Assembly: GCA_944326585.1 (NCBI GenBank)
Contig: CALVEN010000006.1
Span: 1 to 64,000 of the forward strand
Reading direction: 5' to 3'
DNA: 64,000 bases
Origin: Candidatus Gastranaerophilales bacterium
GTDB taxonomy: Bacteria; Cyanobacteriota; Vampirovibrionia; Gastranaerophilales; Gastranaerophilaceae
Shown: piece after piece, positions 11,071-54,578 of the stretch
Layout: every line of letters begins with the position of its first letter
Numbering within the stretch: the first letter of the stretch is position 1
Made by a program: the position numbers and the translations under genes
Notes under the pieces: model-generated
Database searches by the model: none
Seen by the model: only the letters and a program-made list of their open reading frames with translations
What the model was told of the DNA's origin: nothing

Positions 11071-11282
11071 ATAACACCTCACGCCACTCACACCACACAC
11101 TTTACTCACTCTAAAAACTTCTTACGGTCTTACTGTCTTAGTATCTTAGTATCTTTATCTGAGATTCTTCGCTGGCGCTCAGAATGACAAACATGGACAA
11201 ATATAGGTCTGATTAGCCGACAGTAAATCCTTAGTGCCTTACTAGTATCTTAGTAACTTTTATCAAAGATTCTAAAAAACTG
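11071..11282. repeat. Intergenic repeat block upstream of tRNA-Lys
   Basis: The gap from hydA to tRNA-Lys holds no gene. It contains CTTAGTATCTTAGTATC runs, the module GAGATTCTTCGCTGGCGCTC, a GGTCTGATTAGCCGACAGT hairpin-like word and a second TTAGTAAC run. Confidence 0.75.
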
Positions 11283-11345: not shown

Positions 11346-11418
11346 GCGCTTGTAGCTCAGCAGGTAGAGCACTCCCCTTTTAAGGGATAGGTCGCGCGTT
11401 CGAATCGCGCCAAGCGCA
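11346..11418 (+). tRNA. tRNA-Lys(UUU)
   Basis: The cloverleaf has acceptor GCGCTTG/CAAGCGC with discriminator A, D-stem GCTC/GAGC, and anticodon stem CTCCC/GGGAT with loop CTTTTAA (anticodon TTT). The outermost anticodon-stem pair is a C-U mismatch. The T-stem is GCGCG/CGCGC. CCA is not encoded. The last 16 bases are repeated at 11627-11642. Confidence 0.95.
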
Positions 11419-11419
11419 T

Positions 11420-11456
11420 AAAAGAGAGGATAGGTTAAAACCTATCCTCTCTTTTA
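11420..11456 (+). terminator. Terminator after tRNA-Lys
   Basis: AAAGAGAGGATAGG and CCTATCCTCTCTTTT pair as a long perfect stem around a TTAAAA loop, directly after the tRNA. Confidence 0.9.
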
Positions 11457-11642
11457 TTTGTTTTGACAGGATTTGCAGAACGCGCACAAGGCGAAAGCCT
11501 TGTCAAAGCGTTCGGCGGATTTGCGGACGGACGGAATGAAATGAGTCCGGATAGCGAACGGAACGAGCCGGCATAGCCCTCAGGGCTTTGAGGCGAGTCT
11601 CCGTGAGCGTGGAGCAAATCCAAGACAATCGCGCCAAGCGCA
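11457..11642. other. Structured GC-rich element ending in a copy of the tRNA-Lys 3' end
   Basis: This stretch is GC-rich against AT-rich flanks and has no convincing gene. GGATTTGC (11469-11476) pairs with GCAAATCC (11614-11621) to close the element. Inside, GAACGC (11478-11483) pairs with GCGTTC (11508-11513) around a perfect hairpin ACAAGGC-GAAA-GCCTTGT (11486-11503). A smaller AGCCC-TCA-GGGCT hairpin is at 11575-11587. The element ends with CCAAGACAATC (11620-11630), fused to AATCGCGCCAAGCGCA (11627-11642), the exact 3' end of tRNA-Lys. The same layout recurs after tRNA-Gly(UCC). Between 11643 and 11775 the sequence is plain AT-rich leader of the Fic gene. Confidence 0.7.
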
Positions 11643-34801: not shown

Positions 34802-35005
34802 ATATACTCCTTTATAAGACGATATTTTGATTAAAGTCGTTAAGTTATTAAGACGTTAAGTTCTTTAATAAAAGCTTTTTTGACAAAAATATGTTAAGAC
34901 TGATTGATGAAACTCTAAACCTCCAGCCTCAGCTCGTTCGCGCTCGAACCTGAGACAAAGCTTCGCTTTGCGGTTCTCGTCCGCCGATATTCTGTTTTCA
35001 ACAAA
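34802..35005. other. Structured region downstream of tRNA-Gly(CCC)
   Basis: No gene is seen. Read beside the tRNA (minus strand), the region holds a GAACCGC..GGTTC outer arm with a CAAAGC-GAA-GCTTTG inner hairpin (about 34953-34975). On the plus strand, CTCAG/CTGAG (34926-34952) encloses GTTCG-CGCT-CGAAC. These resemble hairpins in the elements after tRNA-Lys and tRNA-Gly(UCC). Here no clear copy of the tRNA 3' end was found. Confidence 0.55.
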
Positions 35006-35077
35006 AGCGGAAGACGGGACTCGAACCCGCGACGTCAACCTTGGGAAGGTTGCATTCTACCACTGAATTACTTCCGC
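35006..35077 (-). tRNA. tRNA-Gly(CCC)
   Basis: On the minus strand: acceptor GCGGAAG/CTTCCGC, D-stem ATTC/GAAT, anticodon stem CAACC/GGTTG with loop TTCCCAA (anticodon CCC), and T-stem GCGGG/CCCGT with loop TTCGAGT. CCA is not encoded. Confidence 0.94.
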
Positions 35078-50759: not shown

Positions 50760-52097
50760 TTATGCAAGTTTTGAAAACCTTCCTGCAACCACAACATCTG
50801 GTTCTCCCGGCTGAGGTTTCAAATTTTTCTTATAAAATTCCACATGCGGCTGCAGCACGCTGTCCAAGACGTCAGGAAGTTTTTCCTGTTTCATTGCTTT
50901 GTCAATCAATTCCTGATAGACAGTTGAGAACGCTCTCGATTGAGTGAGCGCGCCTGCCGTATCAGGTCTTAAGCCCAAACCTGCCGTTTCTGCGGTTTCA
51001 TTAAAAAACGGACCCGACTGCGAATATGATTTGTTTAACGCGTTTATATAACCTGCAGCGTTTTCTCTTGCCGCACCGTGATCAACCGGAGAGGTCAGAG
51101 CATATGCGTATTTATTTGCCGGATTAAAATGTGCTTCCGAGCTGTGATGCATTGCATCAGGAACTTTTGCTATCTGCTTAAGCGTATTTTTTACGGATTC
51201 ATTCTGCATTTGAGAATGCCAGTTTACGGTATCTTCAAACAGTGAACCCATATATTGATGTACGGTTGTTCTTATACCGTTGAGCCTTGAATTTACCCAG
51301 AATGCCGCCTGCATTAACGGGTCATTTTTGCTTAAATCTTTGGAAAGCGCTGTTTCTGACATACCCTGAGCAGCTTTTAACATTTTTATCATATCCTGTT
51401 TTTTCATACCGGCATCTGCCAGCGCAAAAAGAACATGATCATCCAGTGCCGAAAATCTTCCGCCTACGTCGTCGTGTATAAACAAATCTCCCGCCCAGTT
51501 CTCGGAATTCGACAATCTTCTTAATTCGCTTGATGCGGGGTTTTTATCGGTTACGGCTATCATATGTTTTGCTGCCATCTCTTTTGCCTGATTTTTATCG
51601 TAACCTTTGTTTATATAGGCATCCTCAAGTAATTGCTTGAATCTCAGCATCCCGTCTTTTGTTTCAAAGGTCGAACCTGATTTTGACACTACAAGAAAAT
51701 TTGATTTTGTTACATCATTGTCAAGTCTGTTTATAAACCTTGCAAGACTCGTTGAATCAACATCAGAAAAGAACAAAACTTTGTCTTTGTTTATATTCAA
51801 ACCGTTTATTGAAAGCATATGCTCCACCGGATGCTTTGACCCGCCTATACCCAGAACTGTCAATACTTTTGAATCGGTTTGATTTTTGGATTTTGCAACA
51901 AGATCATAAATTTTATCAACCCTTTTGAGCTGCTCTTTCGGCAAATCAATCCAGCTCAAAAATTGTCCGGGCTTATTTGCCCTTCTTGTTAATTCATCTA
52001 CGGCCGCAGGCAAAACTTTGTTTACGTTTGAAACGTCTGCATTAAAATATTTTGTTGCGATTCCAAAACCTGCATTCACAGAATGTACACTTACCAT
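50760..52097 (-). CDS. pgi: Glucose-6-phosphate isomerase-like protein
   Basis: Pgi interconverts glucose-6-P and fructose-6-P. The 445-residue protein has the SIS-domain signatures VLGIGGSKHPVEHML, VVSKSGSTFET, GGRFSALDDHVLFALADAG and QMQNESVKNTL. The family lysine/histidine region near the C-terminus is diverged. The first ~60 residues (VHSVNAGFGIATKYFNADVS) lack the usual start. It is shorter than E. coli Pgi (549), closer to the firmicute type. AAGGAGG stands before the ATG. Together with the GT5-like protein, it fits storage-sugar metabolism. Confidence 0.82.
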   Translation of the reverse strand: MVSVHSVNAGFGIATKYFNADVSNVNKVLPAAVDELTRRANKPGQFLSWIDLPKEQLKRVDKIYDLVAKSKNQTDSKVLTVLGIGGSKHPVEHMLSINGLNINKDKVLFFSDVDSTSLARFINRLDNDVTKSNFLVVSKSGSTFETKDGMLRFKQLLEDAYINKGYDKNQAKEMAAKHMIAVTDKNPASSELRRLSNSENWAGDLFIHDDVGGRFSALDDHVLFALADAGMKKQDMIKMLKAAQGMSETALSKDLSKNDPLMQAAFWVNSRLNGIRTTVHQYMGSLFEDTVNWHSQMQNESVKNTLKQIAKVPDAMHHSSEAHFNPANKYAYALTSPVDHGAARENAAGYINALNKSYSQSGPFFNETAETAGLGLRPDTAGALTQSRAFSTVYQELIDKAMKQEKLPDVLDSVLQPHVEFYKKNLKPQPGEPDVVVAGRFSKLA

Positions 52098-52337
52098 ATT
52101 ATTACCTCCTTAAGTCTGATTTTTTGCAGAAAATAATTTTGTTTTTCGGGTAAATAATCCCCCCGACGGAGTTATTTTATTAGCGGAAGACGGGATTGTC
52201 TTGGTCTTGCTCGCGATTAACGGGTCTTCGGACTTTCTTTTTGTCGGCGTTACCGCCTTAAAAAAGAAAGCTCCTGCGCCCTCAGCTCGCAGACCGCTCG
52301 AACTCGATATAGAGTTCTCATCTATGTCATTCCTAAT
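52098..52337. other. Structured element downstream of tRNA-Gly(UCC), ending in a copy of the tRNA 3' end
   Basis: Read beside the tRNA on the minus strand, the order is terminator, hairpins, CCAAGACAATC (52194-52204) and then CCCGTCTTCCGCTAATA (about 52178-52194). The last is a near-copy of the tRNA-Gly 3' end and its flank (compare 52360-52379, one mismatch). Hairpins include a 10-bp CTTTCTTTTT/AAAAAGAAAG stem (52233-52242 with 52262-52271), which encloses GGCG-TTAC-CGCC. AACTC-GATATA-GAGTT is at about 52301-52316. CTCAGCTCGCAGACCGCTCG (52281-52300) resembles the same position after tRNA-Gly(CCC). No gene is seen. Confidence 0.7.
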
Positions 52338-52360
52338 AAAAAAGCCTTTGAGGCTTTTTT
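52338..52360 (-). terminator. Terminator after tRNA-Gly(UCC)
   Basis: AAAAAAGCC-TTTGA-GGCTTTTTT, symmetric. It lies 3 bases past the tRNA 3' end. Confidence 0.88.
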
Positions 52361-52363
52361 ATT

Positions 52364-52435
52364 AGCGGAAGACGAGATTCGAACTCGCAACAACCTGCTT
52401 GGAAGGCAGGGACTCTACCATTGAGTTACTTCCGC
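52364..52435 (-). tRNA. tRNA-Gly(UCC)
   Basis: On the minus strand: acceptor GCGGAAG/CTTCCGC, D-stem ACTC/GAGT, anticodon stem CCTGC/GCAGG with loop CTTCCAA (anticodon TCC), and T-stem GCGAG/CTCGT with loop TTCGAAT. CCA is not encoded. Confidence 0.94.
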
Positions 52436-52727: not shown

Positions 52728-52816
52728 GTGAATAAGGTAATAGGGGAATAAGTTATATCATAGATTAATCTGAGCGGAATTTTTCTAAGATTGCTTTTTA
52801 TATAACACTTATTCCC
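52728..52816. repeat. Dispersed GAATAAG element, copy 10
   Basis: GTGAATAAGGTAATAGGGG, AATAAGTTATATCATAGATT, AATCTGAGCGG and TTGCTTTTTATATAACACTT. It is a typical member. Confidence 0.85.
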
Positions 52817-53249
52817 CAAAAAATTCAGTATGACGCGAGATATGTCATCCTGAGGCTTTAGCCGAAGGATCTCTTTGCCCCTCACCCCAAACCCCGCGGG
52901 AGAGGGCAGTAATTAGATCCCGCAACAAGTGCGGGATGACGAATTAAGTAAATCCTTAGTATTTTAATAACTTTATCGAGATTCTTCGCTGGCGCTCAGA
53001 ATGACGCTGCAGAGATCCCGCAACACCTACCGTCTACGCCGACGGATGCAGGCTCACACAACTCGTTCCTGTTCGCTTTGCAAAGTGCGGGATGACGAAT
53101 TAAGTGAATTTTTAGTATCTTAGTAACTTTATCGAGATTCTTCGCTGGCGCTCAGAATGACTGAGTGCTGTCCCGGGCAGTTCAGGATGACATAAAACCT
53201 CACACCGCTCACTTCACTCACTCTAAAAACTTCTTAGTATCTTAGTAAC
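52817..53249. repeat. Repeat mosaic before the M16 peptidase 3' end
   Basis: TGTCATCCTGAGGCTTTAGC, CCCCGCGGGAGAGGG, AGATCCCGCAACAAGTGCGG, three TTAGTATCTTAG/TTAGTATTTTAA-type runs and two GAGATTCTTCGCTGGCGCTC copies. CTACGCCGACGGATGCAGG also occurs. No gene is seen. The last TTAGTAACTTA run abuts the peptidase stop codon. Confidence 0.8.
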
Positions 53250-54578
53250 TTATCTTTCCGGAACCAGCACGGATATAACGGCATTATTAATGTTTAAATA
53301 TTTTTTTATAGCGTTATTCAAATCTCCTGTGGTAATGTTTTCCAGCTCGTTCAAATAATGCTCGATAATTTTCAAATCACCGCAAACCGTTACATAATAG
53401 CCGATATTTTCTCCGATTTCGGAAACCGTTTCCGCAGAATATGCAAATTTTGATTTGGTCTTTTTCTTTGCTTTCAAAAGTTCTTCTTCCGTAATCTCAA
53501 CCGTCAAAAGCTTTTCAAGCTCTTTTTTAATCAAATCAAGCGCTTCATCCTTTTTTTCGGATTTGAAATTAGCCTGAATAAAGAAGTTATCCCCGTCTTT
53601 GAACTGGTAATGCTCGGAATTTATCATATTAAACACCGGCTCGGGTAATTTTTCGATTAAATTCCGGTAAAGTCTTGAGCTTGTTCCGTCGCCGGAAATT
53701 ATACCGATTAAATCAAGGCAGATTGTATTTTTCAAATCGCTTGCCTTTGGTCCGAGCCAACCGAACATAGCATAGGATGTATTTATGTGCGATGTCTGCT
53801 CGACATATTTTGTTTCCGCAACCGGCAAATCCGGCTCATGCATCTGTACGGGACGGTTTTCGCGCCCTTTAAAATCAAATTCTTTTTCCAGTTTTTTAAG
53901 AATTTCTTCATGGTCAAAATCCCCGACAACAATGGTCGTCATATTTTCGGGGGTGTAGAAATTCTTATAATAACTCATTATGTCATCGCGCGTAACCTTT
54001 GATATAATTTCGGGTGTGCCTATGACATCGCGCTTATAGGGGTGTTTTGTGTACATATTGAAATTGCAGGTATTGTAAACTTTTGTCCAGGATTGGTCTT
54101 TTCTCATCCTGATTTCTTCAATAACCACGTGGCGTTCACGTTTATCCGAAACCGCCGTGTCGTTCAAATCAAACGGAGCGCCGATTTCTTCTTCCGGCAG
54201 AACAGGATCGAGCATCATATCAGCATGAAGTTCGATCGCGAGGTTCAAATCACGGCAGTTTTCCCCTTTCGGAAGTGTTACGTAATAAAAAGTATAATCT
54301 TTCCACGTTGCGGCATTGACAATAGCGCCTTTAGCCTCGAGAGTTCTGTCAAAATAACCCGCCTTGTGTTTGTGGGTGCCTTTAAACATCAAGTGCTCCA
54401 GAAAATGTGAAATACCGTTGTTTTCGTCGGTTTCATTTATGGAACCCGTTTTAACCCAGGTACTCAAATTTACGAGCGTACCTTCTTTATGCGCAAGGAC
54501 AATCGTATGCCCGTTTTCGCGTGTGTAAACCCCTACATCGCGCGTCAGATAAGGATATTTTACAAAACTTTTTTTCAT
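53250..54578 (-). CDS. M16 family zinc metallopeptidase (insulinase-like)
   Basis: The 442-residue protein has the inverted zinc motif HFLEH (His58, Glu61, His62) and a downstream VVIEEIRMRKD that supplies the third ligand. The C-terminal inactive half carries the M16 substrate-contact region (DGTSSRLYRNLIEKLPEPVF). The size is that of bacterial processing-peptidase-like M16B enzymes, which act as homo- or heterodimers. There is no signal peptide, so it is cytoplasmic or non-classically exported. It is divergent from nanE with a 59-bp gap. The stop abuts a TTAGTAAC repeat. Confidence 0.9.
   Translation of the reverse strand: MKKSFVKYPYLTRDVGVYTRENGHTIVLAHKEGTLVNLSTWVKTGSINETDENNGISHFLEHLMFKGTHKHKAGYFDRTLEAKGAIVNAATWKDYTFYYVTLPKGENCRDLNLAIELHADMMLDPVLPEEEIGAPFDLNDTAVSDKRERHVVIEEIRMRKDQSWTKVYNTCNFNMYTKHPYKRDVIGTPEIISKVTRDDIMSYYKNFYTPENMTTIVVGDFDHEEILKKLEKEFDFKGRENRPVQMHEPDLPVAETKYVEQTSHINTSYAMFGWLGPKASDLKNTICLDLIGIISGDGTSSRLYRNLIEKLPEPVFNMINSEHYQFKDGDNFFIQANFKSEKKDEALDLIKKELEKLLTVEITEEELLKAKKKTKSKFAYSAETVSEIGENIGYYVTVCGDLKIIEHYLNELENITTGDLNNAIKKYLNINNAVISVLVPER

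Follow-up and report, generated by a model that had tools for sequence, protein, structure and literature searches.

A family of folded, gene-free units that end in a copy of the host tRNA 3′ end behind tRNA genes of Gastranaerophilales

Introduction

The 3′ ends of tRNA genes are classic integration sites. Plasmids, islands, and prophages that use tyrosine recombinases insert at these ends, and in doing so they duplicate the end and reconstitute the tRNA. The rtT repeats of Escherichia coli, reportedly described in 1981, are not known to have a settled function. At the tyrT/tyrV locus of strain K-12, these 178-bp repeats (rtT RNA, RttR; RF00391) stand in tandem behind the tRNA gene, and each unit ends in the 3′ part of tRNA-Tyr from T-loop position 58/59. 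Searches of openly accessible papers on tRNA-end repeats, rtT, and repeats of Gastranaerophilales brought up nothing directly relevant.

Here, we analyze a locus behind tRNA-Gly(UCC) in a Candidatus Gastranaerophilales bacterium (assembly GCA_944326585.1, contig CALVEN010000006.1). The window is the whole stretch from position 1 to 64,000 of this contig. An initial annotation of this DNA had described the same layout behind tRNA-Lys and tRNA-Gly and had proposed a family of tRNA-associated elements.

Results

Layout of the loci in the window

On the minus strand, the tRNA-Gly(UCC) gene (52364–52435; ARAGORN; Rfam tRNA, 69.7 bits), which encodes no CCA, is adjoined by an A/T-rich intrinsic terminator hairpin (52335–52363; trailer AATAAAAAAG). 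A folded segment ending in GAGCAAGACCAAGACA follows (about 52324–52197) and then a second tRNA 3′ end, so that both the sequence and the ARAGORN call bear out the order given initially. The stretch ATCCCGTCTTCCGCTAATAAAA (52196–52175, minus strand) is a near-copy of the tRNA-Gly 3′ end with one mismatch; its tRNA part (X′; 52182–52196) starts at tRNA position 59. The trailer or terminator-like stretch behind it (52152–52181) resembles the terminator at the empty site of the congener G008. We found no open reading frame of 80 aa or more between the tRNA and the copy in the window.

The folded segment begins with X (52320–52324), a short strand able to pair with the first bases of the tRNA copy, as supported by X/X′ pairing over 25 elements; this pairing is weak in the window copy and stronger in the sister genome G012. 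Next comes the P0 hairpin (GAGAACTC..GAGTTC, then GAGCG; 52295–52319), which recurs in the family and whose GTTCGA corresponds to T-loop positions 53–58 of the tRNA. The class B core (52197–52302) consists of P1, CGAGC.GAG, P2, the P3 hairpin, CGTTWAANGCGAG, P1′, and a terminal CAAGACA (52197–52203), a conserved junction word that closes both element classes on the 3′ side. With R1, a covariance model built for the core, this copy scores 78.8 bits (E = 7.8e-20).

On the plus strand, tRNA-Lys(UUU) (11346–11418; ARAGORN) is followed by a terminator hairpin (11419–11456), a class A element (11469–11627), and an exact second tRNA-Lys 3′ end from position 59 (11628–11642). The class A element was recognized from its sequence and from the 3′ edge pattern in relatives; it has a P0 of GAACGC..GCGTTC, a P1 of GGATTTGC/GCAAATCC, a different inner fold, and the CAAGACA end. 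Its junction reads GAGCAAATCCAAGACAATC (11612–11630) and runs into the exact Lys end. The layout said to be shared by the Lys and Gly loci holds for the junction and the outer plan, but the inner folds differ. A third element, recognized by core matches in context, lies behind tRNA-Gly(CCC) (35006–35077) on the minus strand (34921–34980). It is a class B element that is truncated in the window, whereas it is intact and followed by a tRNA copy in the congener G001. Separately, blocks of about 50 bp that are 92–96% identical form dispersed intergenic repeats upstream of tRNA-Lys and tRNA-Gly (window 11138–11188 and 52800–53300), and the same genome has, at G000:C5:65337-65705, another and diverged copy of the glucose-6-phosphate isomerase-like gene found at window 50760–52097.

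The initial annotation had suggested a search with the word shared by the two junctions. This 11-mer, CCAAGACAATC, occurs twice in the window and four times in the 1.70-Mb genome: at Lys, at Gly, at the end of a tRNA-Arg array on contig C13, and in a coding sequence on C11. With one mismatch allowed, 23 of 100 shuffled windows contain at least two matches. The word alone is weak evidence because of these chance matches and the coding occurrence, and we rejected it as a signature. The word ends in tRNA positions, which differ from one tRNA to the next; what is conserved at the junction is CAAGACA plus the host tRNA's own end. The short pattern AAGACARTC was uninformative in relatives, being at or below control in most genomes. 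In G058, a genome of another order in the same class, it is over-represented (88 and 81 matches versus 32 and 27 for the reversed control), and yet R1 has no match there.

Copies of tRNA ends across the genome

We located 44 tRNA genes of the window's own genome with the Rfam tRNA model and examined their surroundings, counting as a copy any repeat of the last 14 nt with at most two mismatches within 1 kb downstream. Eleven genes have a downstream copy of their own end, one of which is a neighboring tRNA-Pro gene. Beyond such neighbor-gene effects, at least 10 of the 44 carry a copy: Thr, Arg, Asn, Leu (UAA, UAG, CAA, and GAG), Gln, Lys, and Gly. Further copies at His and, in degenerate form, at Ser were found by eye. 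When the tails of other tRNAs were used as a control, 7 of 1,810 pairings matched, and about six of these are real tRNA genes nearby.

R1 has 26 matches in this genome, 10 at tRNAs and 16 dispersed in intergenic DNA. The Arg array combines one class A with one class B element in tandem, and at tRNA-Leu(UAG) a 5′-shortened element lies between direct repeats of about 22 bp. The copies at Gln, His, Thr, the first Arg unit, and Leu-UAA are preceded by other or inverted structured segments, not by CAAGACA. Several contigs end inside tRNA-end arrays (Arg and His), which is likely an effect of assembly.

Other features were seen in the same genome. Another structured repeat of the CGAGCAAAACGATTGAGTATCGTTTTGTGAGAGG type, often inverted, lies between tRNA 3′-end copies at His, at Leu-CAA, and near Phe (L032, L024, L010, and L030), and a perfect tandem unit of about 167 bp lies behind tRNA-Gln(CUG). 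L094 (G000:C10, about 14.9–17.8 kb) is a retron-like locus, with a 324-aa reverse transcriptase adjoining a 294-aa open reading frame and a small tyrosine integrase nearby.

Distribution among relatives

R1 finds the core in 48 of 59 relatives, at 0 to 47 copies per genome. In a phylum-wide sample of 244 genomes, 99 contain the core and all belong to the order Gastranaerophilales; genomes of other orders in this sample are absent from the matches listed. A covariance model of the intervals, as the initial annotation had suggested, can thus be built and detects the family across the order. The accompanying search of the genome and its relatives for the junction beside tRNA 3′ ends brought up many other tRNAs. 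The proposal of a tRNA-associated family therefore stands, with CAAGACA and the host 3′ end as its mark.

Of 112 high-scoring elements, 72 lie on the same strand as a tRNA or tmRNA gene that is no more than 700 nt upstream, in 54 cases at a distance of 60–105 nt, and 57 are followed by the upstream gene's own 3′ end with at most two mismatches; as these 112 are the best-scoring matches, the fractions are not a genome-wide estimate. The hosts of the own-end elements comprise 19 tRNA types plus tmRNA. In 40 of 51 non-redundant cases, the tRNA copy has its first base at T-loop position 58 or 59. For class A, a search of 20 relatives with the 3′ edge pattern gave about 100 matches, and a control pattern gave none; in the 30 loci that we read, the host's own 3′ end follows at Ser, Gly(GCC), Leu(GAG), Arg, Asp, and Lys.

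Near-identical units stand in tandem at L110, L229, and, behind Gln, L032. At L125 (G005) and L237 (G007), a tmRNA gene is followed by an element and a copy of the tmRNA's own 3′ end. In G034 (L122, L252, L255, and L262), short core variants form tandem arrays away from tRNAs, within a repeat containing CGGGGCTGTGCCCC.

Fold and pairing of the elements

The class B core is about 100 nt long, ends in CAAGACA, and comprises three helices with the conserved CGAGC.GAG and CGTTWAANGCGAG between them. Class A has another inner fold but shares the P0 hairpin, the long-range P1 pairing, and the CAAGACA edge. A first alignment of 14 elements, which was not fitted to a model, showed strong compensatory change in all three helices. 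In a larger alignment of 46 distinct core sequences, which was fitted to R1 and so leans towards the model as the first does not, 81.9% of cells are paired versus 56.9 ± 1.1% in shuffled sequences and 33–47% with slid partners, and the covariation score is 0.529 versus 0.139 ± 0.013.

Outside the core, X adjoins the P0 hairpin on its 5′ side and forms a helix with X′, where the tRNA copy begins, for example, GTTGGAC with GTCCAAC at Asn and AAGGGGAT with ATCCCCTT at Ser. Over 25 elements picked and delimited by hand, the mean X/X′ helix is 4.4 versus 3.25 ± 0.19 when partners are permuted, a value reached by none of 20,000 permutations; X pairs better with the X′ of its own tRNA than with those of others. 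Dispersed copies, several of which are near-identical to each other, are flanked by short inverted repeats (mean 6.5 versus 4.2 in shuffles, with a maximum of 5.15 in 300). The GTTCGA on the 5′ side of the core, which matches T-loop 53–58, is conserved, and at L113 a truncated tRNA-Asp has a core directly in its T-loop, with position 58 on one side and position 59 on the other.

Filled and empty sites

The tRNA-Gly(UCC) site is filled in the window's own genome and in G012. It is empty in the congeners G006, G008, and G011, where both flanks are homologous and the tRNA plus CCA stands directly before the glucose-6-phosphate isomerase gene. In G001, G009, and G013, the upstream flank of this locus is conserved and the downstream flank is not. 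The trailer type AATAAAAAAG recurs at element-bearing tRNA-Gly(UCC) genes of other genomes, whereas empty sites have CCA and a trailer unlike that of filled sites. The tRNA-Lys gene carries a class A element in the window's genome; in G011, where the upstream flank is homologous, it carries one of class B.

At several loci, CCA is missing from the functional tRNA but present in the displaced copy: Asp in G007, G016, G041, and G046; Gly in G012 and G028; Tyr in G002 and G010; and Ser in G016. The reverse pattern occurs at at least two loci (Gly-CCC in G003 and Leu-GAG in G004). These states were read by eye at single loci because an automated tally miscounts CC+discriminator-A acceptors and copies shifted by one base. 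At several loci (Gly-CCC in G001 and Ser in G018), identical trailers are present on both sides, so a tandem or target-site duplication fits as well. Among the genomes examined, neither an excised form nor a recent insertion of a unit was seen.

Discussion

The units form one family, with a conserved structure, a fixed boundary, an end matched to the host tRNA, and empty orthologous sites. On balance, we think that they are probably non-coding, non-autonomous mini-elements of about 170–220 bp that use the 3′ ends of tRNA and tmRNA genes as insertion sites and bring along a new end. A unit would consist of a tRNA 3′ end from position 58/59, usually a trailer with a terminator, X, P0, the core, and CAAGACA. 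Insertion would proceed by recombination within the stretch common to unit and target, from T-loop position 58 to the discriminator base; the tRNA would stay intact with a unit-derived 3′ end, and the old end would be pushed downstream behind CAAGACA. Arrays may arise from repeated insertion or from recombination. Exchange between position 58 and the discriminator would account for a left boundary that is fixed and a copy that matches the host, as well as for the replaced end, the arrays, and the empty sites. A CCA found only in the displaced copy would likewise be expected because the unit would supply a new end and displace the old one.

We suggest that the exchange would be site specific and driven by a recombinase acting in trans, and that the enzyme may recognize the folded strand, either in the form of single-stranded DNA or of RNA. 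No unit encodes a recombinase, and no recombinase could be linked to the family; the window's genome has four tyrosine integrase genes, and its candidate integrases lie at C1:90532, C1:77507, and C2:266020. A body common to different tRNAs is not explained by a simple attP × attB reaction because each unit needs a matching tRNA end, and the proposed exchange alone does not account for one body serving many tRNA specificities. Other points that speak against this reading are the reverse CCA pattern in G003 and G004, the loci with identical trailers on both sides, and the 16 of 26 core copies that are dispersed in the window's genome.

Much of the structural evidence would also suit a functional RNA, either a transcribed and processed RNA or an element of tRNA maturation or attenuation, with the tRNA-end copies produced through tandem duplication and gene conversion, a view that has been put forward for the E. 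coli rtT RNA. The strong compensatory change, an X/X′ pairing that tracks the tRNA sequence, the arrays of near-identical units (L110 and L229; Gln, L032), and the annotation of E. coli rttR, which has the same outer fold, as a small RNA all point this way. We nonetheless hold this to be unlikely: a strong terminator usually separates tRNA and element, orthologous sites are empty and copy number ranges from 0 to 47 per genome, one tRNA can carry different core classes, and dispersed copies lie far from tRNAs. Transposition that duplicates a target site of varying length, such as target-primed reverse transcription in which the CAAGACA end is joined to a nick in the T-loop, would fit an exact 3′ edge with a variable 5′ edge, the 5′-shortened copy at tRNA-Leu(UAG) between its direct repeats, the identical trailers at some loci, and the inverted flanks of dispersed copies. 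We consider it improbable, since a functional tRNA without CCA next to a displaced copy with CCA is not expected from simple duplication and the complementarity of X to X′ is left unexplained. Nor does the enzymology agree: the only reverse transcriptase found in the genome (one RVT_1 match) sits in a locus that looks like a retron and not like a retrotransposon, and we rejected membership in a retrotransposon family with a dedicated reverse transcriptase.

Attachment-site scars left after the deletion of larger islands or prophages integrated at tRNA genes, whose 3′ ends are classic integration sites, would suit the loss of synteny at the tRNA end in G001, G009, and G013, but we regard this origin as very improbable. 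About 20 tRNA types have the same small structured core and CAAGACA edge at a nearly constant spacing, no cargo genes lie between tRNA and copy, and scans of viral DNA gave chance coding matches only, on which ground phages were also dismissed as carriers.

The mini-element reading has practical consequences. R1 can be used to find further members of the family, and the elements explain why Gastranaerophilales assemblies can break at tRNA genes. It also becomes testable how insertions replace tRNA 3′ ends and perhaps lose or gain CCA and terminators. Structured, gene-free units would be targeting the T-loops of about 20 tRNA types and of tmRNA.

Compared with known systems, the units share with tRNA-integrative elements the insertion at the 3′ end, the duplicated end, and the reconstituted tRNA: a direct repeat of the tRNA 3′ end accompanies an intact host tRNA, and the orthologous tRNA-Gly site is empty in G006, G008, and G011. 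They differ in that no unit has its own integrase gene or cargo, in being shorter than 250 bp with a conserved fold, and in serving many tRNA specificities with one common body. REP, REPIN, ERIC, RU, and MITE-type repeats (PMC2759123) are likewise small, non-coding, palindromic, multicopy, and also dispersed, but they lack the strong targeting of tRNA 3′ ends, the copy of the host end, and the fixed T-loop boundary. Integron cassettes and attC sites, likened here by description, also form arrays of small units with a folded site kept by base pairing and not by sequence; their arrays grow at attI, whereas ours stand at a tRNA gene.

The closest match is the E. coli tyrT repeat. The initial annotation recognized no described system with this organization; the outer plan, however, is known from tyrT. 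The tyrT X (GGGGAAGGAT) pairs perfectly with its X′ (ATCCTTCCCC). After X come a P0 hairpin (GAGAAG..GGTTCGACTCGAGCG), then an inner domain, and then the tRNA-Tyr end from position 59, which is the order seen in the mini-elements. In both, the motif GAGAA..hairpin..GTTC..GAGCG..GCGAG comes directly after X. The combined X + GAGAA..GTTC..GAGCG motif, which was composed with both families in view, is rare in background sequence, with three distinct matches in about 1 Mb of viral DNA, none in 5 Mb of Markov sequence modeled on the tyrT region, and four in 5 Mb modeled on the composition of the rtT unit. The tyrT units differ in having another inner domain, GAGTA in place of CAAGACA, no terminator seen between tRNA and unit, and a single tRNA family at the locus. 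An Rfam scan of the elements gave no family above threshold. The RtT model (gathering threshold, 45 bits), with which the tyrT units score 133–138 bits, had no above-threshold match in 28 element-bearing loci, and its sole sub-threshold match (L102, 22.4 bits) was set aside as aligned out of register; R1, in turn, has no match at the tyrT locus. As neither model accepts the other's elements, we treat rtT as following the same plan, with common descent as a possibility only.

A more speculative extension, which we think quite unlikely, is that the folded core and the X/X′ stem form a single-stranded recombination site and that tRNA genes act as integron-like platforms, to which units with a tRNA 3′ end and terminator as their only cargo would be added at the T-loop. 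If so, the E. coli rtT repeats would be a relic of this machinery, or related to it, in a phylum far removed from this one. With the units described here, a curiosity of one E. coli tRNA operon becomes an apparently general element type across a bacterial order.
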